From Chloroflexota bacterium (lineage in GTDB: Bacteria; Chloroflexota; Anaerolineae; Ardenticatenales; Ardenticatenaceae), in NCBI GenBank assembly GCA_003520455.1, contig DOUV01000900.1, positions 1 to 14,462 of the forward strand: 14,462 nt of DNA, written 5' to 3'. A program made the translations under genes and the position numbers. Below, piece by piece: positions 919 through 14,462 of the stretch. The notes under the pieces are model-generated. The model was not told the DNA's origin and did not search any database. It saw nothing but the letters and a program-made list of their open reading frames with translations. Numbering within the stretch: the first letter of the stretch is position 1; every line of letters begins with the position of its first letter.

Positions 919-988
919 ATTTGACAGAAATGGCCATAATACCCGAGATATGGAATATATTCTATGGATGAGCCTGAAAGGAACTAAA

Positions 989-1855
989 GTGAGCGAACAG
1001 GCAACAGTGATCTACGAGACGGATGTGACCGATGAGCAGGATGACCTGATTGCGCCGCTGATCGAGCGCCGGTTGAAGCGCGGCCGTCCCACCAGCTTGT
1101 GCTTGCGCCTGGTATTGAATGCATTGTTCTATTTGACGCGAACCGGCTGTCAATGGCGGCTTTTGCCGAAAGATTTTCCAGCTTGGCCAGGCGTCCGGTA
1201 TTCCTTCGACAAATGGACGGAGGCTGGGACCTGGCTGGAAATCAATCGTCGCCTGGTCGAACGGCGGCGGCTGGCCGTCGGGCGCATCTCGACCCCTTCA
1301 ATGGGTCTGATCGCCAGCCAGTCGGTCAAAACGACAGAAGTTGGTGGTATACGCGGGATTGATGGTAACAAGCAAGTCAAAGGACGTAAACGCCAACTTG
1401 TCACCGATACGCAGGGAAACCTGTTGGGAACTCTGGTTCATCCGGCCAATACTCATGACACCGTCGGCGGCGAAGAACTCTTGGATCTGGTGCTCAATGA
1501 GTATTCATCCATCAAGAAGATCCTGGCGGATCAAGGGTATCGCAGCGACCTGGTAGTGTGGCTTCAACAAGATTTTGGCGTCGAACTCGAGATTGTCGCG
1601 AAACCCGCAGATCAAAAGGGATTTGTGGTGCAAAAATATCGCTGGGTAATTGAACGCACGATTGCCTGGCTCAATCGCTATCGACGCCTGAGCAAAGACT
1701 ACGAGCGTCATGTCTGGAATAGTGAAGCGATGATTGACATCGCCTCCATTCATTTGATGCTGCGTCAATTGCACCCCAATGCGAATATTCCGATTCTGTA
1801 CAAAGAGAAGCGGTCTCCCGAATCGATGGGCCTCCTTTTGAAACAAGCGGCCTAA
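989..1855 (+). CDS. IS5-family transposase with first catalytic Asp replaced by Ala
   Basis: This is an IS5-type DDE transposase of about 288 residues. The N-terminal region has the family pattern (DEQDDLIAPLIERR, TRTGCQWRLLP, DKWTEAGTW). The catalytic block normally reads IDSQSVKTTE but here reads IASQSVKTTE; the Ala codon is GCC at 1313-1315. The second Asp (LADQGY, codon 1529-1531) and the Glu (WVIERTIAWLNRYRRLSKDYE, codon 1652-1654) are intact. GTG 989 is preferred because AAAGGAA precedes it at ribosome-binding distance. ATG 950 and ATG 968 are in frame but lack a good site. Losing the first Asp should abolish catalysis in this fold, so the protein is probably inactive though full length. 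Confidence 0.85.
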   Translation: MSEQATVIYETDVTDEQDDLIAPLIERRLKRGRPTSLCLRLVLNALFYLTRTGCQWRLLPKDFPAWPGVRYSFDKWTEAGTWLEINRRLVERRRLAVGRISTPSMGLIASQSVKTTEVGGIRGIDGNKQVKGRKRQLVTDTQGNLLGTLVHPANTHDTVGGEELLDLVLNEYSSIKKILADQGYRSDLVVWLQQDFGVELEIVAKPADQKGFVVQKYRWVIERTIAWLNRYRRLSKDYERHVWNSEAMIDIASIHLMLRQLHPNANIPILYKEKRSPESMGLLLKQAA

Positions 1856-1864
1856 GTGTATGAA

Positions 1865-1882
1865 CATTTTCCAAACACGCTC
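1865..1882 (-). repeat. Right terminal inverted repeat of the IS5-family element
   Basis: CATTTTCCAAACACGCTC pairs perfectly with 901-918. The following TTA (1883-1885) is the right copy of the target duplication. Confidence 0.88.
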
Positions 1883-1978
1883 TTATGGTCTTGGAGGCGC
1901 ATCAATATGCTCTCATAGTGCTAAGCATCGATGGGCGGGAGCACAGAACAATCATTAGGGGGCAAGAGGCGATCAGCC

Positions 1979-2090
1979 TATCAACCGCGTCCAGCTGATA
2001 CGCTGCTCGCGGGCCGCTCTGCGGCCCGTGCTTGCGTCCCCTCGCCCGCCTGCGGCGGGTTCGGCGCGGCTGACGCCGGGGGCGTTAGCC
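1979..2090 (+). other. attC-like recombination site A (long form)
   Basis: The 5' core is TATCAAC (1979-1985) and the 3' core is GTTAGCC (2084-2090). The core-proximal stem pairs GCGT-c-CAGC with GCTG-ACGC, leaving one unpaired C on the 5' arm, as in the other sites of this window. The 112-bp interior holds two further hairpins: GGGCCGC/GCGGCCC around 2011-2027 and CCCGCC/GGCGGG around 2045-2059. The stop codon of the broken propeller gene lies in its 5' arm, and the toxin-antitoxin unit follows. The 5' core is imperfect against RYYYAAC. Confidence 0.6.
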
Positions 2091-2161
2091 ACCGGATATT
2101 GAAGCTCACTGTGCTGGTTCGTTTTCACAGACGAGTTCTCCACTGGGTCGCCGTTTATATA

Positions 2162-2190
2162 TTGACATTGTATATACATACACGTATAAT
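2162..2190 (+). promoter_or_regulatory. Consensus sigma-70 promoter of the toxin-antitoxin unit
   Basis: TTGACA (2162-2167) and TATAAT (2185-2190) are both exact consensus hexamers separated by the ideal 17 bp. The expected transcription start is near 2197, only about two bases before ATG 2199, so the transcript would be leaderless or nearly so. No ribosome-binding site precedes that ATG, which agrees. This is the only clear promoter I found in the window. Confidence 0.8.
2169..2178. promoter_or_regulatory. Probable operator palindrome between -35 and -10
   Basis: TGTATATACA is a perfect 10-bp palindrome in the promoter spacer, followed by the related TACACGTATA. BrnT/BrnA-type and other ribbon-helix-helix antitoxins repress their own promoters from such sites. 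The antitoxin gene lies 300 bp downstream, so autoregulation is likely. Binding is inferred. Confidence 0.5.
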
Positions 2191-2236
2191 TTAGCTCGAT
2201 GAATGTCACGTACACCCTCCATGACGTCACCTTCGA

Positions 2237-2488
2237 ATGGGACAGTCAGATGAAAATCTTCGCAAGCATAACGTCTCTTTTGAAACTGCTTGCGAGGCTT
2301 TCTTCGACCCCTTTGTACTTTGGCTGGATGAGGAAGTCGTCGAGGGTGAAGTCCGTGAAACAATCCTCAGCATGACCATCAATTGGCGTCTGCTCTATGT
2401 CGTGTATGTGATGCGTGATGATACTGTTCGACTCATTTCCGCGCGCAAGGTGACGAAAACAGAGAGAAAACGATATGAAGATCAATAG
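2237..2488 (+). CDS. BrnT-like (DUF497) toxin, N-terminus frameshifted
   Basis: The product is a BrnT-type ribonuclease toxin, recognised by NLRKHNVSFETACEAFFDP and the C-terminal SARKVTKTERKRYED. The usual N-terminal FEWD motif is missing from this frame. It occurs in another frame that starts at ATG 2199 (residues TFEWDSQ), right after the consensus promoter. The two frames differ by one base, and the switch falls in an AAAA run at 2253-2256. Adding one A would read FEWDSQMKNLRKHNVSF. Unrepaired, the frame from 2199 ends at TGA 2373-2375. So the toxin is either a recent frameshift mutant, made by -1 slippage, started internally at ATG 2237 without a ribosome-binding site, or affected by a sequencing error. 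It overlaps the antitoxin gene by 14 bp. Confidence 0.75.
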   Translation: MGQSDENLRKHNVSFETACEAFFDPFVLWLDEEVVEGEVRETILSMTINWRLLYVVYVMRDDTVRLISARKVTKTERKRYEDQ

Positions 2489-2774
2489 GCTGAAACAACG
2501 CTTACGCAAAGACCGTCCCATGACTATGATCAGTCTTCGGATGCCGGAAGACGTGGTGGAAGACTTGAAGCGGATTGCGCCCCTGCTTGGTTTCTCCGGT
2601 TACCAGCCATTGATCCGTGCCTACATCGGGCAAGGGCTACGGGCTGACTTGGCGCGACTCGAGAGCAATCAGGTGGTCAGCGATTTTGTTGAGAGTCTGC
2701 GGAAGCATGGGGTGGAAGACGAGGTGATCGCCTCTGCAATGGCGGAAGTGCAAGAGGCGATACAACCTGCATGA
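2475..2774 (+). CDS. Ribbon-helix-helix antitoxin (BrnA/CopG-type)
   Basis: The 99-residue product has a basic N-terminal tail and then TMISLRMPEDVVEDLKRIAPLLGFSGY, the beta-strand plus two helices of a ribbon-helix-helix DNA-binding fold. An acidic helical C-terminus probably wraps the toxin. Antitoxins of this kind neutralise BrnT-like toxins and repress the operon. The start overlaps the end of the toxin gene, indicating translational coupling. If the toxin frame is truly broken, the antitoxin would be an orphan. A GGCTAAC-like attC 5' core at 2798-2804 could be the remains of this cassette's own site, cut by the following IS; this is weak. Confidence 0.72.
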   Translation: MKINRLKQRLRKDRPMTMISLRMPEDVVEDLKRIAPLLGFSGYQPLIRAYIGQGLRADLARLESNQVVSDFVESLRKHGVEDEVIASAMAEVQEAIQPA

Positions 2775-2872
2775 CGGACTCACACCATGAAACTGCTGGC
2801 TAACACACATGGGAGGCGACAGGGCTCCGTGGTGGCTTTCAACAACGTTGACATGGAAGCTCATCCCCTTCC

Positions 2873-3841
2873 AGGAGAACGACAGGGTGACGAAAGCTGA
2901 AGCGCGAACCCAGGCCGCGCGCGAGCGGCACCACCAGCGAGCCAAGGAGCGCAAGCGGCGACGCCGGTGCGCTTATCCAAGTGATCTAACGGGCGTGCAG
3001 TGGGCGCTGATCAAACCGCTGGTCGTCCGCCCGAAAACTGGCCCAGGTCGCCCGGTCGACCTGGACTGGCGCCTGGTCTTGAACGCGATCTTCGATCTGG
3101 TGCGCACGGGCTGCCAGTGGTGCTATTGGCCCGACCGCTTTCCGCCCCGCCGCAGCGTGCGCTCTTGGTTCGACCAGTGGACCCATGACGAGACCTGGGA
3201 ACGGATCAACCCGCGCTTGGGTCGCTGGGTCCGGGTGAAACTGAACCGAGCGCCCACGCCAAGGGGTGTCATCGTGGACAGCCAGAGCGTCAAGACGGCC
3301 GAGGTCGGCGGCGAGGTCGGCCTCGACGGCAACCACAAGGTCCAGGGCCGCAAACGTCATGTGCTCACGGATACGCTCGGGCTGCGCTGGAAGGTGGGTG
3401 TGACCGTGGCCACTCTCACGGACGCTGCAGGCGGCGAATTCGTGCTGTTGGCCGTGGCCCGACTCATGCCGCGCCTCAAGAAGGTCTGGGCCGATGGGGC
3501 CTACCAGGCCATGGCCGACTGGATCGCCGCGCATCTCGGCATCGAGGTCGAGATTACCAAGCGCCCCGACGGCCAGAAGAGCTTTGTCGTCCTCGCCAAA
3601 CGCTGGATCGTGGCGCGTTCTATCGCCTGGCTCACCCGCTACCGTCGGCTCAGTAAGGATTACGAACGCGACCCGGTCTATAGCGAATCCATGATTTACA
3701 TCGCGTCTATTCGCTTACTGCTCAACAAGCTCCGGCCAGATACCAGTCAGCCCGTCCCGTACAAGTCTCAGCCCAAAGCAAGTGTTCCGGCTTAATCTCT
3801 ATTTTCGTGGTAAAGTACTGTTGTAATTTCCGACCGCGCTC
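2873..3841 (+). mobile_element. Second IS5-family element, left end not identifiable
   Basis: A second IS5-type transposase gene is followed by a right terminus that ends in TTTCCGACCGCGCTC at 3841. No reverse complement (GAGCGCGGTCGG) occurs upstream, so the left repeat is missing or too diverged; the start given is the ribosome-binding site of the transposase. A loose, gapped match lies around 2822-2845. Immediately right of 3841 begins a methyltransferase open frame that lacks its N-terminal half, so the insertion was probably followed by loss of the left flank. Confidence 0.65.
2887..3795 (+). CDS. IS5-family transposase with catalytic Glu replaced by Ala
   Basis: The product is about 302 residues. 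It has a basic N-terminal tail, then YPSDLTGVQWALIKPL and RTGCQWCYWPDRFPP. The catalytic Asp residues are in VIVDSQSVKTAEVGG (codon 3277-3279) and VWADGAY (codon 3493-3495). The third residue normally sits in WVVERTxAWL but reads WIVARSIAWL here, with Ala encoded by GCG at 3613-3615; the rest (RYRRLSKDYER) is conserved. Without Glu the enzyme should be inactive. GTG 2887 is preferred because AGGAGA (2873-2878) precedes it. An in-frame ATG at 2809 would add 26 residues unlike the family. The gene is more GC-rich than the transposase at 989-1855, so the two are not recent duplicates. Confidence 0.85.
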   Translation: MTKAEARTQAARERHHQRAKERKRRRRCAYPSDLTGVQWALIKPLVVRPKTGPGRPVDLDWRLVLNAIFDLVRTGCQWCYWPDRFPPRRSVRSWFDQWTHDETWERINPRLGRWVRVKLNRAPTPRGVIVDSQSVKTAEVGGEVGLDGNHKVQGRKRHVLTDTLGLRWKVGVTVATLTDAAGGEFVLLAVARLMPRLKKVWADGAYQAMADWIAAHLGIEVEITKRPDGQKSFVVLAKRWIVARSIAWLTRYRRLSKDYERDPVYSESMIYIASIRLLLNKLRPDTSQPVPYKSQPKASVPA

Positions 3842-3842
3842 T

Positions 3843-4189
3843 GAAGTTGGGGTTGAGATTCAATGTGTTCATGCGGACTTATTGGAATGGGAAACACCAG
3901 ATCATTTCAATCTGATCCTAATCCGGGTTGCTTACACAGTATGAGCAGCGACAGCCGGAAAAGGTACAAAGTCCAACTACTGAAGTGGCTTCATCGATCA
4001 TCTTCCTTGTATGTGCTCTTGCATTTTGCCAAGCGGCACTTTTTTGACCTCGGCTTGGTGGGGCCACAACGAAAAACCCGAGAGGACATAGAACGGTTCT
4101 TCGCACCTGAACTGAGGCTTACGGAGTTTTATTCGGAGATGGGAAAGGAACCCTTGAATCAATACCTATTCTTGTCCAAGACTCAGTGA
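3843..4189 (+). pseudogene. 3' remnant of a SAM-dependent methyltransferase gene, frameshifted
   Basis: Starting directly at the IS end, one frame reads SEVGVEIQCVHADLLEWE and then TPDHFNLIL, like the motif II/III segment of class I methyltransferases. After about 3920 the other frame continues with PGCLHSMSSDSRKRY and LVGPQRKTREDIERFFAP, the usual C-terminal part. One base lost near 3920-3930 explains the switch (the expected motif is LDRGCLHS). The SAM-binding GxGxG region is absent, so no active enzyme can be made. The second frame ends at TGA 4187-4189, four bases before attC-like site B1, so this was probably a cassette gene destroyed by the IS. Confidence 0.65.
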
Positions 4190-4192
4190 GCG

Positions 4193-4252
4193 CCCTAACA
4201 ACGGCATACAGCGGACGGCGCTACGCGCCGCCGCTGATGCCCGCCGTTGGAC
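4193..4252 (+). other. attC-like recombination site B1
   Basis: At 60 bp this is the size of a classic 59-base element. The 5' core is CCCTAAC and the 3' core GTTGGAC fits GTTRRRY. The arms pair GGCAT-a-CAGCGG-ac-GGCGC with GCGCC-g-CCGCTG-ATGCC around a TAC loop, leaving a single extrahelical A on the 5' arm. It separates the methyltransferase remnant from the hydrolase gene. Confidence 0.78.
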
Positions 4253-4321
4253 GGCTGCAGTGATAGTGCAAGCCCTGACGGTTATCTTATCGGCCAGCCC
4301 TTGATTGAGTAGGAAGAGACA

Positions 4322-5116
4322 ATGGAAAAGGTCACTTCGCCTGACGGTACAGCTATCGCCTACTATCGCAGTGGTGCGGGATCGCCACTTGTCCTGGTCC
4401 CTGGTACAGGTGCCGCAAATCCGGTTGCCTGGACAGCCGTCCTCCCGGCGCTTGAAGAGCACTTTAGCGTGTACGCGGTTGATCGGCGGGGTCATGGTGA
4501 GAGCGGAGATGGCCCCACCTATGCCATCGAGCGTGAATTTGAAGACATTGCGGCTGTTGTAGACTCGATTGAGGAGCCCGCCAATCTGCTGGGGCACTCC
4601 TTTGGTGCCCTCTGTGCCCTTGAAGCTGCCTTGCTCACCCGGAATCTTCGCCAGCTCGTCGTGTACGAGCCCGCTCTACCTCTCCCAGGCGTATCGCTTT
4701 ACCCTGCAGGCGTCATCGAGCGGCTTCAAGCCCTGCTGGACGCGGGTGACCGAGAGGGAGTCCTGACCACGTTCTACCATGAGGTCGTAATGGTTCCACC
4801 CCACGAGATTGAACAGTTGAGAGCGTCGCCGGCCTGGCCAGCGCGGCTGGCGACCGCCCACACCCTGCCGCGGGAGACGCGGGCAGAAGAACGATATACG
4901 TTCGATGCGCAGCGGTTTAAGGACTTGCATACCCCAACGTTGCTCCTGCTCGGCGGCGACAGCCCGCAGATCCTCAAAGCGGCCACTGAAACTGTAGACA
5001 CAGCCTTGCCAAACAGCCGGATCGCCGTCATGCCGGGGCAACAACACATCGCAATGTACACTGCACCTGATCTCTTCCTGCATGAGGTGCTAACGTTCTT
5101 AATCGAGCCGAGATGA
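4322..5116 (+). CDS. Alpha/beta-fold hydrolase
   Basis: This 264-residue protein has the full alpha/beta hydrolase plan. The oxyanion-hole segment is PLVLVPGTGAANPVAW. The strand-turn VDRRGHGESG follows. The nucleophile elbow is GHSFG with Ser93, the acid is Asp213 in LLLLGGDSPQ, and the catalytic His242 is in PGQQHIAM. A helical cap lies at about residues 125-195. There is no signal peptide, so it is probably a cytosolic esterase-like enzyme; the substrate cannot be told. AGGAAGAG precedes ATG 4322. The gene stands alone between attC-like sites B1 and B2 with no obvious promoter, as expected of an integron cassette. Confidence 0.88.
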   Translation: MEKVTSPDGTAIAYYRSGAGSPLVLVPGTGAANPVAWTAVLPALEEHFSVYAVDRRGHGESGDGPTYAIEREFEDIAAVVDSIEEPANLLGHSFGALCALEAALLTRNLRQLVVYEPALPLPGVSLYPAGVIERLQALLDAGDREGVLTTFYHEVVMVPPHEIEQLRASPAWPARLATAHTLPRETRAEERYTFDAQRFKDLHTPTLLLLGGDSPQILKAATETVDTALPNSRIAVMPGQQHIAMYTAPDLFLHEVLTFLIEPR

Positions 5117-5132
5117 CGGATACAGAGGCACC

Positions 5133-5195
5133 GGCCAACATGCGGTTGCAGCCGACTTGCTCCGCTGCGCAAGCGGCTGAACCGCACCGTTATGC
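5133..5195 (+). other. attC-like recombination site B2
   Basis: The 5' core is GGCCAAC and the 3' core is GTTATGC. The arms pair TGCGGTT-g-CAGCCG-ac-TTGC with GCAA-g-CGGCTG-AACCGCA, giving 7 bp and 6 bp on either side of one extrahelical G. The layout, including the ac/g internal bulge, is the same as in site B1. It starts 16 bases after the hydrolase stop, and the next gene begins about 20 bases after its 3' core. Confidence 0.8.
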
Positions 5196-5216
5196 GGCTG
5201 GAAGGGTGTTGCGAGG

Positions 5217-5804
5217 TTGAACGTCGTCCGTGATTTCGATTTCCATCCCGACGAGGAGACGGTTCGAGTGTTTGGTGCAGCGCGCTCGGACGTGCCTCGA
5301 CTCGACGCCGACGTGTTTGTAGCGCGAGTACGCTACGAAGATGTGGTCCTGCACCACTACGCGTGGGCTTCTCGATGGTTTAAGGTGAACGTGACAACGG
5401 ACCTGGCTGGCCAGGTGGTCGAGACACTCCCCACCGACGGCGTTCCCGCCTATACTTTCAACATCGACATCGCCACGCCGATGCTCCATGATGATCGAGA
5501 AGTGTTCGCCGTCGACTTGTTTGCCGACGTGCTGGTCCGCGCCGACGGTGTAACGTACGTCGTCGGCGGCCAGGATGAGACGAAGTGGGCAGCGACCGCG
5601 GGGTTGATCTCGGAAAAGGAGCTGAGGGGCGCCGAGCGGGCGCTGGGCCAACTCGTTGAGATCGTCGAGCGCGGCTCCCTGATGACGCTGCTTTATGAAG
5701 CATGGCCCTTGGAACCTTCGAATCCTCGGTTTGCCCCCGCGATGGAACGAGTGGCTATATGCCAGGTGGCGGTGCTTGCGCCGTACAGGCGGTGGACCTG
5801 GTGA
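5217..5804 (+). CDS. DUF402-family protein (possible nucleotide phosphohydrolase)
   Basis: The 195-residue product resembles DUF402 proteins. It has a strand-rich N-terminal half (ASRWFKVNVTTDL) followed by the family signature YTFNIDIATPM and VFAVDLFADVLVRADG, then a helical tail (EKELRGAERALGQLVEIVERG). The acidic residues that bind metal in characterised members, such as nucleoside di/triphosphatases and FomD, appear kept (NID, VDLFAD). The substrate here is unknown. The start is taken as TTG 5217, with GCGAGG just upstream. The last 25 residues are unlike the family and may be read-through into former spacer. It lies between attC-like sites B2 and C. Confidence 0.75.
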   Translation: MNVVRDFDFHPDEETVRVFGAARSDVPRLDADVFVARVRYEDVVLHHYAWASRWFKVNVTTDLAGQVVETLPTDGVPAYTFNIDIATPMLHDDREVFAVDLFADVLVRADGVTYVVGGQDETKWAATAGLISEKELRGAERALGQLVEIVERGSLMTLLYEAWPLEPSNPRFAPAMERVAICQVAVLAPYRRWTW

Positions 5805-5831
5805 TCGGCTGATTCGGTCCGGGCGTCCGCC

Positions 5832-5894
5832 GTCTAACCACGGCGTCCAGGTAGACTCGGCTTCGCCTCGCCGCTGACGCCGTAGACGTTAGCC
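5832..5894 (+). other. attC-like recombination site C
   Basis: The 5' core GTCTAAC is an exact RYYYAAC; the 3' core is GTTAGCC. The arms pair ACGGCGT-c-CAG with CTG-ACGCCGT (7 and 3 bp) with one extrahelical C, and a small GGC-ttc-GCC hairpin caps the site. It separates the DUF402 gene from the acetyltransferase gene. Confidence 0.8.
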
Positions 5895-5979
5895 GGCAGG
5901 GGCGGTGTGCGGTTCTCTGCCGTGTAGAGCCCGCTGCGCCGGGTATACGCCGCTTCCTTCTGATTTCGGACCGAACACG

Positions 5980-6429
5980 ATGCGAGTTCGTGCTGTTGAA
6001 GTGGCTGATCGCGGTGAATGGCTGCGCATGCGGGGCTTTCTCTGGCCCGAGGCGGCTGAGGCCGAGCATGCAGCCGATATCGATGCATTCCTCCGCGGCC
6101 CCTCCGAGGCAGAGCTGGTGCTGGCCGTCTTTGTTTGTGAGCGTGCGCCGGGCGGACTTTGCGGCTTTCTGGAGCTCTCGGTGCGTAGCTATGCCGAGGG
6201 CTGCACGGGCGCGGCTCCGTACGTGGAGGGCTGGTATGTCGATCCTGACGTGCGGGGGCAGGGAATCGGACGAGCGCTCATGGAGGCCGCCGAGCAGTGG
6301 GCAAGAGAGCGTGGCTACACGGAACTGGCCTCGGATGCCGAGCTGGAGAACCGGGCCAGCCATGAAGCCCACCGGGCGCTCGGCTTCGAGGAGGTGGAGC
6401 GCGCCGTCCACTTCCGCAAAGCTCTGTAG
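5980..6429 (+). CDS. AAC(6')-I-like aminoglycoside N-acetyltransferase (GNAT)
   Basis: This 149-residue GNAT protein resembles the short AAC(6')-I enzymes that acetylate the 6'-amino group of aminoglycosides with acetyl-CoA. Features shared with that group are WLRMRGFLWPE near residue 20, LELSVRSYAEG, EGWYVDPDVRGQGIGRAL (residues 83-100, the acetyl-CoA loop) and the C-terminal ASDAELENRASHEAH followed by RALGFEEVERAVHFRK. Its length also matches. ATG 5980 gives the family N-terminus; an in-frame upstream extension to 5905 has none of the family character. No good ribosome-binding site or promoter is seen, so expression may be weak or driven from upstream. The gene lies alone between attC-like sites C and D. 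Activity on a drug is inferred; another small amine substrate is possible. Confidence 0.82.
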   Translation: MRVRAVEVADRGEWLRMRGFLWPEAAEAEHAADIDAFLRGPSEAELVLAVFVCERAPGGLCGFLELSVRSYAEGCTGAAPYVEGWYVDPDVRGQGIGRALMEAAEQWARERGYTELASDAELENRASHEAHRALGFEEVERAVHFRKAL

Positions 6430-6436
6430 CCGCCCA

Positions 6437-6553
6437 GCCTAACCGGCGCTGCAGGCGACTCAGGGCCGTGCATGGACAAAGCTGCTGTGCTTGCCCGACC
6501 GGCAGCGCATCCAGTAGAGTGTGACGCGCCAGGCCCTGAGCTTGGCGTTGTTC
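6437..6553 (+). other. attC-like recombination site D (long, degenerate 3' core)
   Basis: The 5' core GCCTAAC is a perfect RYYYAAC, eight bases after the acetyltransferase stop. The arms pair GCT-g-CAGG with CCTG-AGC, keeping the single extrahelical G, and CTCAGGGC/GCCCTGAG forms an alternative 8-bp stem. The 3' core GTTGTTC (6547-6553) departs from GTTRRRY, so the exact 3' limit is uncertain. Confidence 0.6.
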
Positions 6554-6617
6554 GGTACGCCACCGCAACTCAAGTAACATTAGGTAACTCATTTCTCTCA
6601 CAAACGAAGGTGTCCTG

Positions 6618-6795
6618 ATGACTCACCTCCTTGAAGAGGCTTTGGCAAAACTATCAACAGAATTTGCGGGAACGTCAGATTGCGATTGTTGTGTTGCTTT
6701 CAACCTCCTGGCCACGAATTCGCCGGCGTGTTGATGGAATTCGGGAAGTGATCAGTGCCATGCGTGCTGATAGCTACTCAGAGATTCCGATCTAA
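6618..6795 (+). pseudogene. Small frameshifted gene remnant of unknown function
   Basis: ATG 6618 follows a good ribosome-binding site (GAAGGTG) and encodes MTHLLEEALAKLS, which looks like the N-terminus of small antitoxin-like proteins, but this frame soon degenerates. Another frame, from about 6655, reads LRERQIAIVVLLSTSWPRI and ends at TAA 6793-6795 as ISAMRADSYSEIPI. One frameshift near 6640-6665 would join them into a protein of about 59 residues. Alternatively two fragments were joined by a deletion. It sits between site D and the partial site at 6809, so it was probably a cassette gene. No family can be assigned. Confidence 0.4.
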
Positions 6796-6808
6796 AACGC
6801 AACGCACC

Positions 6809-6858
6809 GCCCAACAACCGGTTGCAATAGGGTTTGGCCAGCTCAACTGGTATTCGAA
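6809..6858 (+). other. Partial or decayed attC-like site D2
   Basis: GCCCAAC is a perfect RYYYAAC 5' core, 14 bases after the TAA of the small remnant. ACCGGTT (6817-6823) pairs with AACTGGT (6845-6851) through one G-T wobble, in the place of the outer stem of the other sites. No GTT core follows, so the 3' half has decayed. The next gene begins about 35 bases on. Confidence 0.4.
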
Positions 6859-6890
6859 TGATGTGACAGATCATTGCCTGGAGGCAAGAC

Positions 6891-9800
6891 ATGGGTGAAA
6901 CAAGACCCCCCGATCCAGTTGAGCAACGAGCGGCAACGCTCATATTGAAACTCGGTCTGAAGGGCGCAGAGAAATATGAACGGGTGCGGCTCGAATTGGA
7001 GACCGCCCGCCTGAAGCGCAGCGCTGGCGCCGATGTGGCGGTCAGCCTTGAGGGAAAGCGTCTGGAGCTACAGGCAAAACTGGATTTCGTCGAGACGGTG
7101 GAGTTCACGGCGCCGTCTGGCAGCTACGAGGCGTTGATCCTGATCCTCGGCAGCGTTTGCGGCCTTCCCGATCGCGGCCTGTCGTGGGTCGAGCTCGCCT
7201 CGGTTGCAGCCGTGACCATCGCCGAGCCGATTGACTTGAAAAGGGATACTGAAGCGGCCATATCCATCGTCCGTGATCTTGACGAGATTCTGTTCGATTC
7301 ACGTCCGGACGATGAACGCGAGGAGGCGATGGAGCGCTGGCATTACGTCGACACTGCCCGGCCAGCGACAATTCGCCTGAATCAAGGATCGATCGGCAGC
7401 GGACGGCGTGCGTGGGCCGATGTCCGGTTAAGGCCGGATACGTTCGAATTGGGCACAGGACTGAGCCTGCGCCGAGGCGCCATCGACGCACTTCCCGAAC
7501 TCTTCAGAGGGCAGCGGCCCCTGGGGCCTGTCCTGGAGATCACGGCGTCCTCGGCGCCGCGCGGGTGGCTTGACATCACCCTGAGCTATTCGCCCGAAGA
7601 ACTCGCCCGGTCTGGATTCGAGTCCAAAGATATCGTGGTTCTTCAGTTCCTTCGCGATCGTCGCCAGTATCGCGAGATACCACCCTACCGCGTCGATACG
7701 GCCAACCACACAGTGAGCGTCCGGGTGAATTCGTTGTCCGCGTTTTTCGCCTGCTCTCCCGGAATCCTCGTGAACTTCCCCAGACTCCAGATCAATGCTG
7801 CGGGCGAAGTGGTCGCCTACGAGGATGCACGCGAGACGCAGATCGCCGGCCGCGTCGTTGACGGCCGAACGGACGCGTTCCTGCTCACCCAGGTAAGTCG
7901 CACGTCCTGGACCTCGCAGGGCTGGTTCGTGTTCGAGGACGTTCCGCTCGAGCCCTCCGATACCGCCGTGACCATCGTCGCCGGTGGTCACTTCTGCGAC
8001 TTTACGATTCGGCGCGGGCTCCCCACAAAGACCATCACCCGGCCCAACACGCCGTTCGCTGGTACGCCAGGGTTCGGAGACGAAGGCACGGTCTTCGTGG
8101 CGACTGTGTTGCGCCAGACCGTCGATACCGCCGCGGTTGAGGGTATCGATGCCCTGCGCAACTTCCTGTCGAGCGTAGAACGGAACATCCCGACGATGTT
8201 CTGGTTCAACGCCGACGCGGATCAGTGGGAGTCCTTCAGACTGTTGTCTGATCGCTTCTATGAGAATGAGTTTGCCCGCCTGGCAATCGACGAGATCGCC
8301 CGAAATCTGCGACGTGAGGTTCCTGTCAACCCGGACTATCCAGAGGAAGTGCGTTACCTCCGGTCGCTGGCGGATTTCGTTGCCGGGCTGAACGAGACCA
8401 ACGCCCGTTTCGGCCTGGCGGTGATCATCAACGTCGTCGCGCAACTCTTTGGCGCCGACAATCTCTCGGTGTCATCGCGGCTCCCAGTCGTCACCCTGAC
8501 GGAGGGACACGTCGGATGTGCCTTTGTCGCCGCATCCTATAATGGCTGGCGGGCGTCAACGCGTAGCTCAGTTGGCAGCTACCTGCGGCGGCGACACGTG
8601 CCGCGTCAGGCCGACCGCCGTGCTGGGTTCGGGCTGAGTGTGCTAGCCGGGCGTCTGTTCTACGTGCGCGCCTCGCGCGACAGCGTGGTCGAGGTGGAGG
8701 TCGTCGCCGACGACCTCCTCTGTAGCGCGCTCTCGATGAAGGTGAACCACGCGCTCGGTCAGCCCGCGATCCTGGCAATCGGGCTTCCGCCGGAGGACGG
8801 CGCGGGATACGACGAGAGTATGCTTCTCCTGTTCCAGCGCCAGAGGAACGGGCAGTGGACGCGTGCGGTCGTCTGGCAAGGCCAGCCGATCATCGATGCG
8901 GACATGGACTTCGGGTTCGGAGACAGACCCTTCGTGGTCGCTGCGGTGGAGAACCGGAACGAGGAGCTGAACGCCGACCTGTACTACCTCCCGCCTCAAC
9001 CGCTCGGGCCGGGGTGGGCTCCGCGGCCATTGACCTGGAACCTGGTAGGGTTTCCGGTCAATACCCAGTTGGGGATGTGGCCCCGAATCGTCATCTCGAG
9101 CTGGCCACCGGAGGAATTGGGGACCATCGACTGCGGCTTCACCTTCTTCACAGAGCACACGGTGTTCTGGCTCGCTGGCACGCCAGACCGCGATGGCCGA
9201 TGGCAGGTGGTTGAAGCGGGCCAGGGAACGAGGGCGAGTCTCGCCGCGGCGTCGAACCTGGCGCCGCCGCCCCAGGGGTTTGCCGACGATGTAGTCGGTT
9301 TCAGCCGGGTCAGCCCCTATCACTGGGCCTCCAGTATCGCGCCCCGGAGCGATGGTTCCATCTGGTATGCCTTCGGCAACGGCGTCCTGCATCTCGCCCG
9401 CTTCAATGGCACGAATGTCACCAACCGCATCGTGGACATCGACCGCACGACGGGGTTCTTGCCGCAGCTCGCCACGCGCGAGTCCGCGCCCGGCAGCTTC
9501 AATCCTCCCGGTGCGCCGGTCATCGGGTACAAAGACGTGCACGGTGCCAGCACGCTCAACGCCGCCAGCGGTATTGAGTTCGCGACCGGCCTCGACCTGC
9601 AGTTCTACGACCTTGCCACCAGCCACCAGGTTCCCCAGGTCTCTCCGCCCGACGTTCCCGCGCCGGTCGGCGCTCCTGTACCGCGCCGTTCGTATGCGCA
9701 GGCGTTTCTGAACGACTTTGGCACGCGAGTTCCTTTCACCTGCGGCCGCTTCACCAGCTACGTCGGGATCGTCATCTTAAGTGCCCTGTCGGGCAGCGGC

Positions 9801-11777
9801 CTTTCGTCTGCCGAGCAGCAGCGCCTCCTTGACGAAACGCAGTCCTCCATCTTTATGAACAGCCCCATCGACATCCATGCCCGGCCTGAGGAAGGCTTGC
9901 TGGAGATCACAATTCACAACGATAAGCCGAATGAACCGGACGCGATCCGCTCGATGCGCCTGCGGCAGCGGACTGGGGGACGGACAACACTCATCGTGAC
10001 GGATTCGACCGGGACCGAGGGCGAGGGCGCCTGCGGCCTCATGCAGGACAGCTGGGACGCCATCGCCGGCAATTTTATCAATGTACCCCTCGACCCAACG
10101 AGTCTGTTTCCGATGGACGGCGGGATCCGGGCGCGTGATGTACGCCTGGATGGGATCAGGATGTCGTTCTCCGCAGCCCCCACCGTAGTTCCGCGGCAGC
10201 AGGGTGCCATTCGCTTCCGCGTCGATCTGCCGAGCATCCACATAGAAGGAGAATCGCGCGGCGTCAACTTCACCGCGGCCTCGACGGAACCGTCGGTGTT
10301 TGAGTTCGATGTCGCGCCGTTCGTCGTCGACGGCCGCGTGAACTGGCACATTCGCTCCACGTCCGGCCGGATTGGCCATATCGATGTCGATGTCGATCTC
10401 GATTTCCTCACGTGGATCGGTGTCGTCGGTGGAATCATTACAGGGAACCCGCTGGTCTACTTCTTGGTTCTCGTCGATCCAATCGCCGGAACGTTCGCTA
10501 CCGATGAGACCAACGAACAACTGGCCGAGCGAGAGGGGCTACCGCTGGGTGGCCTTCCGGGTCAGCTGATGGACCTGCTCGGAGCGCACGCGCTGCGAAA
10601 GGCGTTCGGCACGGAGACCGATCTGAGCCAGTTCACGTTCGAGGCGGTTCATCTCGAGGACCTGTTGACGACGACGTCGAGATCGAACCCGTTCATCACC
10701 TACTTCCTGCGCCTGCCCCGCGGTGCCGCTGACGCACCGCCGGCGACGGATTTCGAGTTCTTCCCGGATCAAGTCCGCGACTTCGGCAGCGTCATCGTTG
10801 GCGCGTCGTCGGGAATTCGCAGCGTCTTGCTCGTCAATAATGGGAGCTTCCCAGTCTCGTTGGAGGGCGTGCAGGTGGTCGGGAGCAACGAATTCGTCCT
10901 GGTAAGCTCGGCAGTGTGGCCCAAGATCATCGCGCCGGGCGCCTCCGAAAGGCTCGACCTGGAATTCCGGCCCCAGGGCGGAGCGGGATTGCGCCAGGCG
11001 ACACTGCGCGCCGACTATAACGGCCGGCGCCAGCTACAACTCACGCTGTTGGGCGTTGCTCAACCCGCGCCTCTGCCGGAGATCCGCGCCATCCCTCGCC
11101 AGCTCAGCTTCGGGGTAGTGAATGTTGGGACGACTGCCACACTGCAACTCACCCTGGCTAATGACGGCGCCGCGCCGTTGACCATGAACGCCGCGCGCGT
11201 CGAAGGTCCCGACAGCGCGCTCTTCGCGCTACCCGGCCAGATCCCAACCGTGGTTCAGGCAGGACAAACCGCCTCTCTGGAGGTGAGCTTCACCCCCGCC
11301 GCGATGGTCGCCGGCGGGCACCACGCCACGCTCGTCATCGAGAGCAACGCGGACAACGATCCCCAGTTGGGCGTGAGCCTGTTCGGCGCGGGAGCGGCCT
11401 CCAGCCTTCTGGTGATGCCGACGCAAATCGCTTTCAACCCCTCCCCGCTGGCGCCGACCCTTCCCCCGGGTCTAGGATCGAGACGCGGCTTCACCATCTA
11501 TAACGTCGGCGCCGTGCCGCTGACTATCGCCGGAAGCTCGTTCCGGGTGCTTGAGGCGGGGAGCGGACAGGTATCGCCGCACTTCGAAATCCTGGACGCT
11601 GCCGGACAACCCTTCCCGCAAAATGACCTTCAACTGAACGGTGGAGCCTTCCAAAGTCTGTCGGTCCAGTTCCGCCCCGTGGCGGCCGGCGACCACGCGG
11701 CCAGGATAGAGCTCACGCCAACAGATCAGGCCCAGCCGCCGGTGACAGTGTCCATTAGCGGCCGAGGGATTGGGTAG
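6891..11777 (+). CDS. Giant protein with beta-propeller-like and three C-terminal ASH-type domains
   Basis: This 1628-residue protein starts at ATG 6891 after GGAGG (6880-6884). No signal peptide is visible. Residues 1-75 are helical and charged. Residues about 225-295 resemble a beta-sandwich module found in large bacterial surface proteins (ITLSYSPEELARSGF, VDTANHTVSVRVNSLSAFFA), and 300-375 look like a carboxypeptidase-regulatory Ig-like fold. Residues about 600-870 contain repeated strand units (PFVVAAVENRNEELNADLYY, GSIWYAFGNGVLHLARF) like a sialidase-type propeller, without clear Asp boxes. A hydrophobic hairpin lies at 1172-1203 (WIGVVGGIITGNPLVYFLVL). Three ASPM/SPD-2/hydin-like Ig domains follow, from about 1287, 1397 and 1506, each with the FGxVxVG or equivalent opening and a FxP strand. 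Binding or adhesion is likely, but the true role is unknown. Confidence 0.8.
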   Translation: MGETRPPDPVEQRAATLILKLGLKGAEKYERVRLELETARLKRSAGADVAVSLEGKRLELQAKLDFVETVEFTAPSGSYEALILILGSVCGLPDRGLSWVELASVAAVTIAEPIDLKRDTEAAISIVRDLDEILFDSRPDDEREEAMERWHYVDTARPATIRLNQGSIGSGRRAWADVRLRPDTFELGTGLSLRRGAIDALPELFRGQRPLGPVLEITASSAPRGWLDITLSYSPEELARSGFESKDIVVLQFLRDRRQYREIPPYRVDTANHTVSVRVNSLSAFFACSPGILVNFPRLQINAAGEVVAYEDARETQIAGRVVDGRTDAFLLTQVSRTSWTSQGWFVFEDVPLEPSDTAVTIVAGGHFCDFTIRRGLPTKTITRPNTPFAGTPGFGDEGTVFVATVLRQTVDTAAVEGIDALRNFLSSVERNIPTMFWFNADADQWESFRLLSDRFYENEFARLAIDEIARNLRREVPVNPDYPEEVRYLRSLADFVAGLNETNARFGLAVIINVVAQLFGADNLSVSSRLPVVTLTEGHVGCAFVAASYNGWRASTRSSVGSYLRRRHVPRQADRRAGFGLSVLAGRLFYVRASRDSVVEVEVVADDLLCSALSMKVNHALGQPAILAIGLPPEDGAGYDESMLLLFQRQRNGQWTRAVVWQGQPIIDADMDFGFGDRPFVVAAVENRNEELNADLYYLPPQPLGPGWAPRPLTWNLVGFPVNTQLGMWPRIVISSWPPEELGTIDCGFTFFTEHTVFWLAGTPDRDGRWQVVEAGQGTRASLAAASNLAPPPQGFADDVVGFSRVSPYHWASSIAPRSDGSIWYAFGNGVLHLARFNGTNVTNRIVDIDRTTGFLPQLATRESAPGSFNPPGAPVIGYKDVHGASTLNAASGIEFATGLDLQFYDLATSHQVPQVSPPDVPAPVGAPVPRRSYAQAFLNDFGTRVPFTCGRFTSYVGIVILSALSGSGLSSAEQQRLLDETQSSIFMNSPIDIHARPEEGLLEITIHNDKPNEPDAIRSMRLRQRTGGRTTLIVTDSTGTEGEGACGLMQDSWDAIAGNFINVPLDPTSLFPMDGGIRARDVRLDGIRMSFSAAPTVVPRQQGAIRFRVDLPSIHIEGESRGVNFTAASTEPSVFEFDVAPFVVDGRVNWHIRSTSGRIGHIDVDVDLDFLTWIGVVGGIITGNPLVYFLVLVDPIAGTFATDETNEQLAEREGLPLGGLPGQLMDLLGAHALRKAFGTETDLSQFTFEAVHLEDLLTTTSRSNPFITYFLRLPRGAADAPPATDFEFFPDQVRDFGSVIVGASSGIRSVLLVNNGSFPVSLEGVQVVGSNEFVLVSSAVWPKIIAPGASERLDLEFRPQGGAGLRQATLRADYNGRRQLQLTLLGVAQPAPLPEIRAIPRQLSFGVVNVGTTATLQLTLANDGAAPLTMNAARVEGPDSALFALPGQIPTVVQAGQTASLEVSFTPAAMVAGGHHATLVIESNADNDPQLGVSLFGAGAASSLLVMPTQIAFNPSPLAPTLPPGLGSRRGFTIYNVGAVPLTIAGSSFRVLEAGSGQVSPHFEILDAAGQPFPQNDLQLNGGAFQSLSVQFRPVAAGDHAARIELTPTDQAQPPVTVSISGRGIG

Positions 11778-11876
11778 TCTCCTGGTAGCTCTGCCGGGCC
11801 ACGCCTCGAAGGCTGAAAAGGGGCGGATATACTTGATGAGCCTGACAAGACAAACGGCACCTGATAGGAGGCCACA

Positions 11877-12143
11877 ATGGTTCAGCCCAATGTGATTCGT
11901 CACGATCGTGAGATCTTGGGCGGAACATCGGTCTTGGCCGGCACACGCGTTCCGGTTCAGACCCTGCTGGAGTATCTGGAAGGCGGTCAATCGCCGCAAG
12001 AGGTCCTGGACGACTTTCCGACGGTGGAACGTGACCAGGCGATTGCAGTTCTCGAACAGCTCAAGCACATCTTACTCACGCAGTCCCGAAAGGCTGTGGC
12101 CTTGGCGAGGGCCGCAACGCGGCAACTAAACCCTGGTCGTTAG
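11877..12143 (+). CDS. DUF433 protein (orphan antitoxin-like)
   Basis: The 88-residue protein is a clear DUF433 member, with IRHDREILGGTSVLAGTRVP, a winged-helix-like DNA-binding core, then LLEYLEGGQSPQEVLDDFP and AVLEQLKHIL. DUF433 proteins usually precede a PIN-like (DUF5615) toxin and act as its antitoxin. Here no toxin follows; the next gene is a methyltransferase. AGGAGG at 11866-11871 is a strong ribosome-binding site. The tail after KHIL (about 20 residues) is unlike the family, and its stop codon lies inside a GTTAGGC core at 12139-12145. This suggests that recombination replaced the natural downstream partner. Confidence 0.82.
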   Translation: MVQPNVIRHDREILGGTSVLAGTRVPVQTLLEYLEGGQSPQEVLDDFPTVERDQAIAVLEQLKHILLTQSRKAVALARAATRQLNPGR

Positions 12144-12145
12144 GC
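12139..12145 (+). other. Isolated attC-type 3' core (site E)
   Basis: GTTAGGC fits GTTRRRY exactly. The preceding CTAAACC resembles the 3' arms of the other sites, but I found no pairing 5' arm nearby. The following gene starts 36 bases downstream behind its own ribosome-binding site, as after true cassette boundaries. It may be the scar of a rearranged site. Confidence 0.35.
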
Positions 12146-12180
12146 AGACCGAAAGCGGGCAGCTTGAGGCGAGGAGAGTC

Positions 12181-12912
12181 TTGAAGAAAACGGATTACAG
12201 CATCCTGGCCGACCGATACGCTTTACATCGCAGCGCCCATCCGGCGGTGGTCACCCGGCTCGCGACTGGGCTCAATCCGGAATCGCGTGTGCTCGAGATT
12301 GGCTGCGGGACAGGAAACTACCTGGCCGCGATTCGTAACTTCACTTGGTGTGAATGCGTTGGAATCGATCCATCTCCCGAAATGCTCTCGAAGCTTCGCG
12401 CGCGGGGACTTCCGATCCGGGCAATCGAAGGTCGGGCCGAGCAGCTGGACCTTCCCGGCGAGGAGTTCGATCTGGTCTACTCCGTGGATGTGATTCACCA
12501 CGTCGGCGATCGCGACGCGGCATTTCGCGAAGCAAATCGAGTATTACGCAACGGTGGTCACGTTTGTACGATCACTGATTCGGAGTGGATGATTCGGAAC
12601 CGGCAGCCGCAGTCGGTATACTTTCCGGAGACGATCGATGTCGACCTTGCGCGGTATCCAGGCATCCACGTACTTCGCTCGGAAATGACGCGAGCAGGGT
12701 TCGACTCGTTTCGCGAGGAAATTGCGGAGTACTCCTACGAGCTTACGGATTCCGTCGCCTACCGCCACAAGGTCTTCTCGTCATTGCTGTACATCAGTGA
12801 CGAGGCGTTTCGGCGTGGCCTGGCACGGCTCGAAAATGACTTGCGTCGGGGTCCGGTTCGATGCACTTCGCGGTACCTGCTTCTCTGGGGCACGAAGCAG
12901 AACAGGAAATGA
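12181..12912 (+). CDS. Class I SAM-dependent methyltransferase
   Basis: The 243-residue product has the standard motifs: VLEIGCGTGNY (residues 37-47, motif I), GIDPSPEML with Asp63 binding the ribose (motif II), FDLVYSVDVIHHV (96-108, motif IV) and VLRNGGHVCTITDSEW (motif VI). The helical C-terminal part is typical of small-molecule methyltransferases of the Methyltransf_11 type; the substrate cannot be told. The start is TTG 12181, with GAGGAGAG just upstream. The gene is alone between core E and attC-like site F, so it looks like a one-gene cassette. It is unrelated in detail to the remnant at 3843-4189. Confidence 0.88.
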   Translation: MKKTDYSILADRYALHRSAHPAVVTRLATGLNPESRVLEIGCGTGNYLAAIRNFTWCECVGIDPSPEMLSKLRARGLPIRAIEGRAEQLDLPGEEFDLVYSVDVIHHVGDRDAAFREANRVLRNGGHVCTITDSEWMIRNRQPQSVYFPETIDVDLARYPGIHVLRSEMTRAGFDSFREEIAEYSYELTDSVAYRHKVFSSLLYISDEAFRRGLARLENDLRRGPVRCTSRYLLLWGTKQNRK

Positions 12913-12947
12913 CGGAGATACCTTGGCCAGGCATGCGAGACGGCATT

Positions 12948-13022
12948 GCCTCACTCCGCGTTGCAGCTGACAAGGCGCTCGCGTACGCTCGGTCCGCGCA
13001 GCTGAACGCTGCGACGTTAGCC
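12948..13022 (+). other. attC-like recombination site F
   Basis: The 5' core GCCTCAC differs by one base from the GCCTAAC of site D, and the 3' core is GTTAGCC, as in sites A and C. The arms pair GCGTT-g-CAGCTG with CAGCTG-AACGC with one extrahelical G, then GCGC with GCGC after a short bulge. It lies 35 bases after the methyltransferase stop. Confidence 0.75.
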
Positions 13023-13117
13023 GGCCCATTTGCCAGAAGGTCCTCGCGCATCCGCAGGTGGGCTGCCATCAGCCAGGGGTTCCAGGCGCGGGCCATCCCG
13101 CGGTCGGCCGGTAGCCT

Positions 13118-13147
13118 GGGGGGCCGGGGGGCCTGTCGGGGGGTGGG
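13118..13147 (+). other. Strong G-quadruplex motif
   Basis: Four G runs of 6, 6, 6 and 3 (13118-13123, 13126-13131, 13138-13143, 13145-13147) are separated by loops of 2, 6 and 1 bases. This satisfies the usual G3+N1-7 rule with room to spare. The stretch 13023-13166 between sites F and G has no convincing plus-strand gene. The minus strand at 13025-13096 encodes a short protein-like stretch (WNPWLMAAHLRMREDLL), but without a supported start or full gene. Confidence 0.65.
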
Positions 13148-13166
13148 TGTCCCCGGCGGAGGGGCC

Positions 13167-13276
13167 GGCTAACCCCCGTTGCCGCCGACGCGGGCGATCG
13201 AGGCGCCATACTACGCCGTGCGACCAATCGGGCATTGATCCTGAATCGCCCCGCGCGGCTGAACCTGCCGTTAAGG
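13167..13276 (+). other. attC-like recombination site G (long, less regular)
   Basis: The 5' core is GGCTAAC and the 3' core GTTAAGG. The arms pair GTT-g-CCGCCG with CGGCTG-AAC with one mismatch and the same extrahelical G. It is 110 bp long with an unstructured centre. The region upstream holds the G-quadruplex motif and no gene. Confidence 0.5.
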
Positions 13277-13347
13277 CCGCCCCTGGGGTGCCTACTCCCC
13301 GTACGCAGCCGGCTGGCCTCCTTCAGGAAAGGTCCCGCGTGAGTGCC

Positions 13348-13354
13348 GTTAGAC
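13348..13354 (+). other. Possible additional attC 3' core just before the helical-protein gene
   Basis: GTTAGAC fits GTTRRRY exactly and lies 17 bases before GTG 13372, the spacing seen for cassette genes. A 5' half resembling the other sites may begin near 13291 (CTACTCCCCGTACGCAGCC), but pairing between the halves is poor. Confidence 0.3.
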
Positions 13355-13371
13355 GTTTGGAGGCGTACACC

Positions 13372-13827
13372 GTGAATGAATCCGCGATCCACGCTGTCAT
13401 GGCAGAAGCCCGCAATTGCGCGTTGACCATGCTCGAGAACGCCACCTACATCCAAAGTGAGCTGGCCAACGTCCGAATCAACGATGCACTTCGAGCAGAG
13501 ACGCAACAGCTCTGCTCTGCATTCGTCGGCACGAAGCATGACATCATCTCTGAACTGTTCGAACTGGACGAGCTTCTCAGCTCAGAGGCTACAGCCTCCG
13601 TGATCCGTTCTCGGGTGAATCGCATCATGCAGTTGTTCCAGAATGACATCACCCGGATGCATCAGCTTGTGATGGCTCTCGAATCCGCCAGCAAACAAGA
13701 TCCGGCCTACGCACTTGCCTATGTGCTGGTCGCAGAGTCGGCTACAAACATTCTCAATGCCTTCAACCGCACGAGAGCAGTCGCGGATTCCCTACACGCC
13801 GAAGCAGAGGAGAATCGACGCACCTGA
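13372..13827 (+). CDS. Helical (coiled-coil-like) protein of unknown function
   Basis: I do not recognise this family. The product of about 151 residues is almost entirely predicted helix, with heptad-like spacing of Leu, Ile, Val and Ala, for example SELFELDELLSSEATASVI and NRIMQLFQNDITRMHQL. It has no signal peptide or membrane segment, so a cytosolic helical bundle is likely. GTG 13372 is preceded by GGAGG at 13359-13363. GTG 13339, also in frame with AGGAAAGG upstream, would add 11 residues. Anything further upstream in the frame is GC-rich noncoding DNA that includes site G. Its TGA (13825-13827) lies within the 5' core of site H. Genes of this unknown kind are common in integron cassettes. 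Confidence 0.7.
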   Translation: MNESAIHAVMAEARNCALTMLENATYIQSELANVRINDALRAETQQLCSAFVGTKHDIISELFELDELLSSEATASVIRSRVNRIMQLFQNDITRMHQLVMALESASKQDPAYALAYVLVAESATNILNAFNRTRAVADSLHAEAEENRRT

Positions 13828-13917
13828 CAAGGCGCTGCACCTGACCCCGGCCCGCATCCTGGTTTCTCATGGTTCCCTGTCGCTGCAGCGGACCGCGGCA
13901 GGTGAGCTGGGTTGTTG
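13822..13917 (+). other. attC-like recombination site H
   Basis: The 5' core ACCTGAC overlaps the stop codon of the preceding gene. The arms pair GCT-g-CACCTG with CAGGTG-AGC and keep the single extrahelical G. The 3' core is either GTTGTTG (13911-13917, best spacing) or the consensus-perfect GTTGAGC at 13927-13933. The interior shows no further long stem. Confidence 0.6.
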
Positions 13918-14076
13918 CCCGGGCGCGTTGAGCGTGTGCAGAAGGTTCTCAGCCCCTCCCAGTGGAGAGCCAGTGTCACTGCTGGTATGAAGGCTCGCCT
14001 GGTGTGATGATTGGGCCATCTTGGGCCGGGCTCAATAGACCAACTCCTCGAATAGCAGTTGATAGGAGAAAATAAA
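13918..14076. other. Spacer before the LLM gene with no supported feature
   Basis: I see no gene or convincing promoter here. A short palindrome CAGTGTCACTG occurs near 13971-13981. AGGAGA just before 14077 is the ribosome-binding site of the next gene. Confidence 0.4.
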
Positions 14077-14462
14077 ATGTCGACAGACTCTCGCCCCCTC
14101 GGTGTAAACATTATGAATCTGGAGACGCGGCGCGATGCAATTCTTCACTTAGCCATCCGCGCTGATGAACTTGGTTATGAAGCTCTGTCATTTCCTGAAA
14201 CGTGGTCGTATGATGCAATGCTAATATTGACCGAGATTTCTGTTCGTACCCAACAGATTCGCCCGTGGGCTACTATTCTTGGCGTATGGGGACGTAGTGC
14301 TGCCCAAATTGCGATGGCTTCTGCAACACTCAATATGATTTCTGGTGGTCGATTCATGCTTGGGCTTGGAACCAGTACGAAGCAATTGGCGGAAGGCCTC
14401 CACGACGTTTCTTACAGAACCTCGCGAGAGAAAGCCCAGGGCTTCCAGCCCTGGGAGCCCCT
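14077..14462 (+). CDS. LLM-class flavin-dependent oxidoreductase, N-terminal part (truncated by window end and probably by an insertion)
   Basis: ATG 14077 follows TAGGAGAA at ideal spacing. The frame encodes a luciferase-like monooxygenase N-terminus: LGVNIMNLETRRDAILHLA, ADELGYEALSFPETWSYDA, IRPWATILGVWGRSAAQIAM and SGGRFMLGLGTSTKQLAEGLHDV. Such proteins use FMN or F420 in a TIM-barrel fold. After HDVSY (codon TAC 14413-14415) the sequence no longer resembles the family, which would continue with an Arg-rich helix. Instead it enters a GC-rich hairpin. The gene is less GC-rich than most of the window and may have a different origin. It is probably interrupted right after TTAC. Confidence 0.75.
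   Translation, partial: MSTDSRPLGVNIMNLETRRDAILHLAIRADELGYEALSFPETWSYDAMLILTEISVRTQQIRPWATILGVWGRSAAQIAMASATLNMISGGRFMLGLGTSTKQLAEGLHDVSYRTSREKAQGFQPWEP
14416..14462. mobile_element. Possible left end of an IS200/IS605-type element
   Basis: Directly after TTAC (14412-14415), where the oxidoreductase similarity stops, there is a short leader. A perfect hairpin follows, CCCAGGGCT-tcc-AGCCCTGGG (14435-14455). IS200/IS605 elements insert 3' of a short target (TTAC for IS608) and carry a subterminal hairpin about this far from the end. No transposase is visible because the window ends, so this remains inference. Confidence 0.35.

Follow-up and report, generated by a model that had tools for sequence, protein, structure and literature searches.

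A probable CALIN-type array of integron gene cassettes in a 14.5-kb stretch of Chloroflexota DNA

In a stretch of 14,462 nucleotides from an uncultured Chloroflexota bacterium (hereafter, the window, meaning the whole DNA analysed), single genes are separated by palindromes, which raises the question of whether these are the attC sites of an integron and, if so, where the integrase is. The bottom strand of attC folds when it is single-stranded, and the integron integrase recognises the unpaired bases of the folded site and recombines it at the G/TT of the R′ box. The excised cassette is a circle, whose entry takes place at attI or at another attC. In an array of this kind, each cassette would end in its attC, preceded as a rule by a single gene and in some cases by several or by none. 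Clusters of attC sites that lack an integron integrase are called CALIN, a term of IntegronFinder, and are described in passages of PMC9024848 and PMC8618304; the latter also treats the ways in which CALINs arise and includes Chloroflexota among the integron-bearing phyla. CALIN-type arrays are thus a known kind of arrangement, of which the window is a good example: it is very probably an integron gene-cassette array without an integron integrase in the sequence at hand.

Models of attC that are specific to a taxon are dealt with in part of PMC8352920, and the one used here was built from the integrons of a single phylum. The alignment of the DUF402-type protein of the window led to a contig of a Chloroflexi MAG, and the genome of this MAG was the centre around which the phylum was sampled. 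Among 400 genomes of that phylum, 43 had a match to the integron integrase family TIGR02249 above its cut-off and 47 had one at E ≤1e-40, with no match in 14 control genomes. Stretches around intI genes were taken as 20 reference loci (L029-L048), and attC-like sites were collected from them with a simple scanner. The covariance model, R1, comes from an alignment of 23 scanner sites beside intI, none of them from the window, which were hand-picked among the scanner hits of up to 82 bases in six loci. Eight further hits of that size in these six loci, which were either echoes on the opposite strand or lacked clear boxes, were not used, and one of the sites that were kept (L032, position 15723) is misaligned at its 3′ end. 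The scanner required one unpaired base in L″, a rule written after the sites of the window had been viewed, and the training set was consequently not blind to this trait. For this reason, the reference sites were checked by their layout relative to intI, by the covariation of their stems and by searches of control loci with R1 and with a second model, a profile. This profile consists of the four boxes and the pairing of L, is free of loop length and was trained on intI-adjacent sites only, leaving out those in which R′ does not start with GTT (one of 47) and merging identical box sets.

With R1, 14 of the 20 intI stretches yielded a total of 47 sites at E ≤0.0009. The canonical layout, in which the site is upstream of intI and on the strand opposite to it, is seen for 46 of them. 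Among the six stretches in which no site was found, the upstream sequence spans only 219-3039 bases in five and 9165 in one. The stems of the reference sites covary (score of 0.382, against 0.124 in shuffles), with 89% of cells paired, compared with 25-40% when the stems were slid, and 138 cells changed on both sides, compared with 48.9 in shuffles, although all of these measures lean in favour of the structure, as the alignment was fitted to it. Two of the five covariation measures are not clearly above shuffles, in which values as high were reached in 45 of 500 cases for pairs changed on both sides and in 495 of 500 for further pair types. On the basis of these sequence comparisons, the reference sites were taken as genuine attC. 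An exception in orientation occurs in L034, where the attC at 10559-10630, located 46 bases upstream of intI, is on the minus strand, which it shares with intI, while the remaining sites of that array are on the other strand.

The eight palindromes listed in an earlier note on this DNA, which had been made from the letters alone, are all present in the window, with boundaries that differ by 0-3 bases from those given there. All of them are attC sites on the plus strand, with the layout R″, L″ with one unpaired base, L′ and R′ (Table 1). The GTT of R′ is found in all eight and the AAC of R″ in five, with ATC, CAC and GAC instead in attC1, attC6 and attC8, respectively. The earlier note had proposed a covariance model as the check on these sites. 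When R1 was run on the window without filters, which gave 38 matches at E ≤10, five of the eight were clearly recovered (E from 2.5e-15 to 5.9e-5), while attC5, attC7 and attC8 gave weak matches (E of 0.036-0.47). By R1 alone, these three do not stand out and they need other support, since the best match in control DNA (85,524 bases from seven other loci, out of eight control loci) reached 16.0 bits. They are 98-120 bases long, compared with 59-82 for the training sites of R1, and the pairing of their L boxes, which is good in attC1-4 and attC6, is poorer.

The profile, which does not depend on loop length, places the eight sites at ranks 1-8 of the window, with scores of 27.5-59.6, and every further match scoring at least 14 comes from one of these palindromes read on its other strand (four cases, at no more than 25.0). 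Across 29 control loci (172,881 bases, within which some overlap is likely), five matches scored at least 18, the best of them 22.6, and none reached 24. In 300 dinucleotide shuffles there was one match of at least 27 (28.3), that is, as good as attC5. The layout of integron cassettes, CALIN-like, that had been proposed for the window is consequently supported by R1 for five of its eight sites and by the profile for all eight. It might be argued that the palindromes are ordinary repeats (REP-like sequences or terminators) that happen to lie between genes, as half of them fold no better than shuffles: the folding energy of the bottom strand is outstanding for attC1-4 (z of −4.4, −5.4, −4.9 and −2.3), and the values for attC5-8 are −0.3, +0.7, −0.3 and −1.2. 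We regard this explanation as extremely improbable, since the palindromes share the boxes of attC, point one way and match sites adjacent to intI, with no equal-scoring counterpart in control DNA (by R1 for the best five and by the profile for all eight), and since no terminator-like sites were found in 1860-6900. An Rfam search of the window at E ≤1 gave two matches, neither of them to an attC family and both below the gathering score.

By the 4-kb rule for attC clusters, which is given in a passage of PMC9668308, the array is made of two clusters. At least two attC sites less than 4 kb apart are expected in a CALIN, and five such sites are found in 1976-6556 and three in 12948-13920; of the sites that are significant with R1, the first cluster has four and the second has one. 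An interval of 6.4 kb separates the clusters. The description of the units as single genes on the same strand holds for most of the window, and it fails in two places: 6557-12947 contains a gene of 1628 codons, a DUF433 gene and a methyltransferase gene, and the 144 bases between attC6 and attC7 (13023-13166), which form a cassette closed by attC7, have no gene assigned. As the earlier note had stated, stop codons are found in or just before the 5′ cores (4, 17, 28, 8 and 36 positions before attC2, attC3, attC4, attC5 and attC6, respectively, and inside attC8). Starts, which were said to follow the 3′ cores often by 20-70 bases, were observed 70, 22 and 86 bases after attC2, attC3 and attC4.

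Table 1. Features of the window, with positions counted from its first base and the scores on which each assignment is based
Feature	Position	Strand	Evidence
IS5-family insertion sequence	900-1883	+	transposase 950-1855; NF033580 207.1 bits, cut-off 110
attC1	1976-2090	+	R1 24.3 bits, E 5.9e-5; profile 49.6
Sigma-70 consensus promoter (TTGACA, 17 nt, TATAAT), consensus match only	2162-2190	+	12/12 match, ahead of toxin gene
BrnT-family toxin	2237-2488	+	PF04365 73.7 bits, cut-off 34.5
BrnA-like partner, overlapping the BrnT gene	2475-2774	+	NF047399 15.4 bits, below cut-off 60
Second IS5-family element, inside first cassette	2853-3864	+	172.6 bits, cut-off 110; tentative ends, 13/16 bases matched
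108-aa ORF without known relatives	3863-4189	+	one match, 100% identical over 76%
attC2	4193-4252	+	R1 56.6 bits, E 6.8e-14
Alpha/beta hydrolase cassette gene	4322-5116	+	PF12697 77 bits, cut-off 26.3
attC3	5133-5195	+	R1 61.8 bits, E 2.5e-15
DUF402-type cassette gene, 195 aa	5217-5804	+	annotated as PF04167, as are most of the relatives listed (own record P0001, 178 aa)
attC4	5832-5894	+	R1 37.6 bits, E 1.3e-8
AAC(6′)-like GNAT acetyltransferase cassette gene	5980-6429	+	NF043067 135.5 bits
attC5 (long loop, weakest)	6437-6556	+	R1 10.2 bits, E 0.47, rank 12; profile 27.5
Orphan 5′ half of an attC, which may close a short, decayed cassette	6809-6830	+	half-site score 13.0
1628-aa gene, C-terminal ASH/HYDIN-type Ig domain	6891-11777	+	PF22544 67.1 bits, cut-off 25.5
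DUF433 gene	11877-12143	+	PF04255 58.5 bits, cut-off 23.6
Orphan 3′ attC half (L′ and R′)	12123-12145	+	half-site score 17.4
Methyltransferase cassette gene	12181-12912	+	PF08241 86.1 bits, cut-off 21.2
attC6	12948-13022	+	R1 39.9 bits, E 2.8e-9
attC7	13167-13276 (13277 by R1)	+	R1 14.3 bits, E 0.036; profile 31.5
Four-helix protein cassette gene	13372-13827	+	frame open from 13030; 75 relatives
attC8	13822-13919/20	+	R1 13.2 bits, E 0.068; profile 28.8
Luciferase-like monooxygenase gene, cut by window end	14077-14460	+	PF00296 65.5 bits, residues 18-117

The genes of the first cluster agree with this reading. BrnT/BrnA and acetyltransferases are named as cassette functions in part of PMC7370490, and the presence of gene families that are at home in cassettes was counted in favour of a cassette array. 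The partner of the BrnT-family toxin is called BrnA-like from its position and a weak score only. In the stretch searched for promoters, two promoter-like sites were found against 1.4 in shuffles, a number that is not above chance, although the 12/12 match ahead of the toxin gene stands out. The DUF402-type protein is 63% identical to its Chloroflexi MAG relative, had no Pfam match at E 0.001 and has one relative in 400 genomes of the phylum.

Two IS5-family elements accompany this cluster. The first, which is placed upstream of attC1, has perfect inverted ends of 19 bp; if these ends are read as GAGCGTGTTT, TTA is found on both sides, which would fit a 3-bp target duplication. The second separates the toxin pair from the orphan 108-aa ORF, which starts at the right end of the element; by its first start codon, the transposase ORF spans 2809-3795 and begins before the left end given in the table. 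A possible attC start near 2800, beside this element, was dropped, as it was not among the best 16 half-sites. In 301 genomes of the phylum, the first transposase gave no match at E ≤1e-80, an empty result that is not informative. Among plasmid sequences, the best 12 of the 2499 matches to the first transposase are at most 47.1% identical (and all 2499 below 60%), and the best 12 of the 1814 matches to the second are at most 44.8% identical. No near match of the window DNA was found in plasmids.

The last gene of the cluster encodes a relative of an aminoglycoside-modifying enzyme. Its product misses the cut-off of NF043067 (135.5 versus 140 bits) and matches solved AAC(6′) structures (1s3z, E 1.2e-20). 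The plasmid-borne gene aac(6′)-Il, which we take to be a cassette gene, encodes an acetyltransferase of the same AAC(6′) type, and the gene of the window likewise stands in front of an attC; however, the two proteins are only 48.6% identical, and that of the window lies under the NCBIfam cut-off. Of 301 genomes of the phylum, 18 encode relatives at E ≤1e-10, the closest at 55% identity. No attC was found within about 1.5 kb on each side of these 18 genes (best R1 match of 13.7 bits and best profile score of 18.5), a result that was weighed against the array reading and gives no sign that the AAC(6′)-like gene is mobile elsewhere. The gene of the window is a cassette, and those of the 18 relatives appear to be ordinary chromosomal genes.

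The interval between the clusters is harder to interpret. A few decayed palindromes had been reported in addition to the eight, of which a 5′ half (6809-6830) and a 3′ half (12123-12145) have some support. In 200 shuffles of the plus strand, 5′ halves scoring at least 12 and at least 14 occurred in 0.195 and 0.065 cases per window (13.0 observed), and 3′ halves scoring at least 16 in 0.07 (17.4 observed); judged by these scores, both half-sites are likely, not certainly, real. From attC5 to position 6830 there is a short stretch with no intact gene that ends in the 5′ half-site. The 5.3 kb that follow, up to the 3′ half, contain the 1628-aa gene, whose product has one partial match (29%) in 141 genomes; 1628 amino acids are very long for a cassette gene. 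Together with an interval that exceeds the 4-kb rule and a segment bounded by opposite halves of attC (5′ and 3′), this gene is what would be expected if only 1976-6556 and 12948-13920 were cassettes and the 5.3 kb were chromosomal or inserted DNA, two cassette clusters having been joined or split. By contrast, the halves pair poorly beyond GGTT/AACC (by eye), neither of the two genes that they enclose matched a transposase family, and the stop codon of DUF433 lies inside the R′ box of the 3′ half, an ending like that of cassette genes. We consider this reading quite possible, if on balance slightly improbable. A more ambitious proposal, which we hold to be unlikely, is that the segment would be a compound cassette of exceptional size, or else an insertion that parted the two halves of an attC, and that the array would represent an environmental pool in which an AAC(6′)-type gene had been taken from chromosomal relatives and made part of a mobile cassette.

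In the second cluster, the four-helix protein, whose gene stands between attC7 and attC8, has a predicted model of high confidence (mean pLDDT of 95.1) and belongs to a family of 75 relatives, mostly on short contigs and including one from Terriglobales. A search of 301 genomes of the phylum gave a single relative; C16, C48, KHD 55-57 and H97 are invariant among the 17 sequences aligned. A Foldseek search with the model gave no match at E ≤0.001, and the structures matched are common bundles. Weak matches to CARF/HEPN and RapA_C were not taken as its function, and of the 132 stretches of viral contigs that matched a pattern none was confirmed as a relative. The monooxygenase gene downstream of attC8 is probably the next cassette. 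It leaves its family match before the end of the window, whose last 40 bases contain a short hairpin that may mark where another mobile element ends.

The window encodes no integron integrase, as the earlier note had maintained: a profile of 12 integrases from the reference loci, searched in six frames, reached a best score of 1.0 bit, compared with 543-611 bits in four intI-bearing loci used as positive controls, three of which had contributed to the profile and one of which, L038 (543 bits), had not. The window could nevertheless be part of a complete integron, with intI and attI beyond it, the assembly broken at repeats and the integrase acting in cis. Its ends look like mobile-element repeats, as the first bases resemble an IS end and the last ones hold a hairpin where the monooxygenase gene leaves its family, and an integron broken by assembly must therefore be considered. 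Moreover, intI is common in the phylum sampled, and draft assemblies are said in a passage of PMC9024848 to inflate the counts of CALINs, some of which can be broken complete integrons. Against this, nothing IntI-like is found in 14.5 kb, and an array remote from any active integrase would be consistent with the IS insertions and the broken half-sites, although these are no proof of it. A complete integron is, in our opinion, a doubtful explanation that deserves serious attention. In the reference loci, several of the integron integrases are located within 1 kb of a contig end.

Returning to the CALIN-type array as the preferred reading, the window resembles the elements known by this name in that two or more attC sites are near each other, the cassettes all point the same way and, within its limits, there is no integrase. 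It differs from them in its two clusters, 6.4 kb apart and with the 1628-aa gene between them, and in its two IS5 elements, and it is integrase-free only as far as the window reaches. With the integrons of the reference loci it shares the attC boxes and the unpaired L″ base, and the model trained there finds five of its sites; there, however, all but one of the 47 sites accompany an intI, being upstream of it and on the other strand, whereas no intI is seen here. We infer that the best-kept sites at least (attC2, attC3, attC4 and attC6) could still recombine with an integrase supplied in trans; CALIN cassettes are described in part of PMC9668308 as capturable by such integrases. The two IS5 insertions and the broken attC halves suggest that the array may be decaying. 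Toxin pairs have a stabilising role for arrays, and the pair found here may contribute to keeping this one.

The window brings to light a well-supported array of cassettes in an uncultured bacterium and ties its sites to the integrons of a phylum with intI over the cut-off in 43 of the 400 genomes sampled. Two points are worth following, namely the 5.3-kb segment between the orphan half-sites and the AAC(6′)-like cassette, which, when set against its 18 attC-less relatives, is suited to the study of how genes of the chromosome are turned into cassettes.
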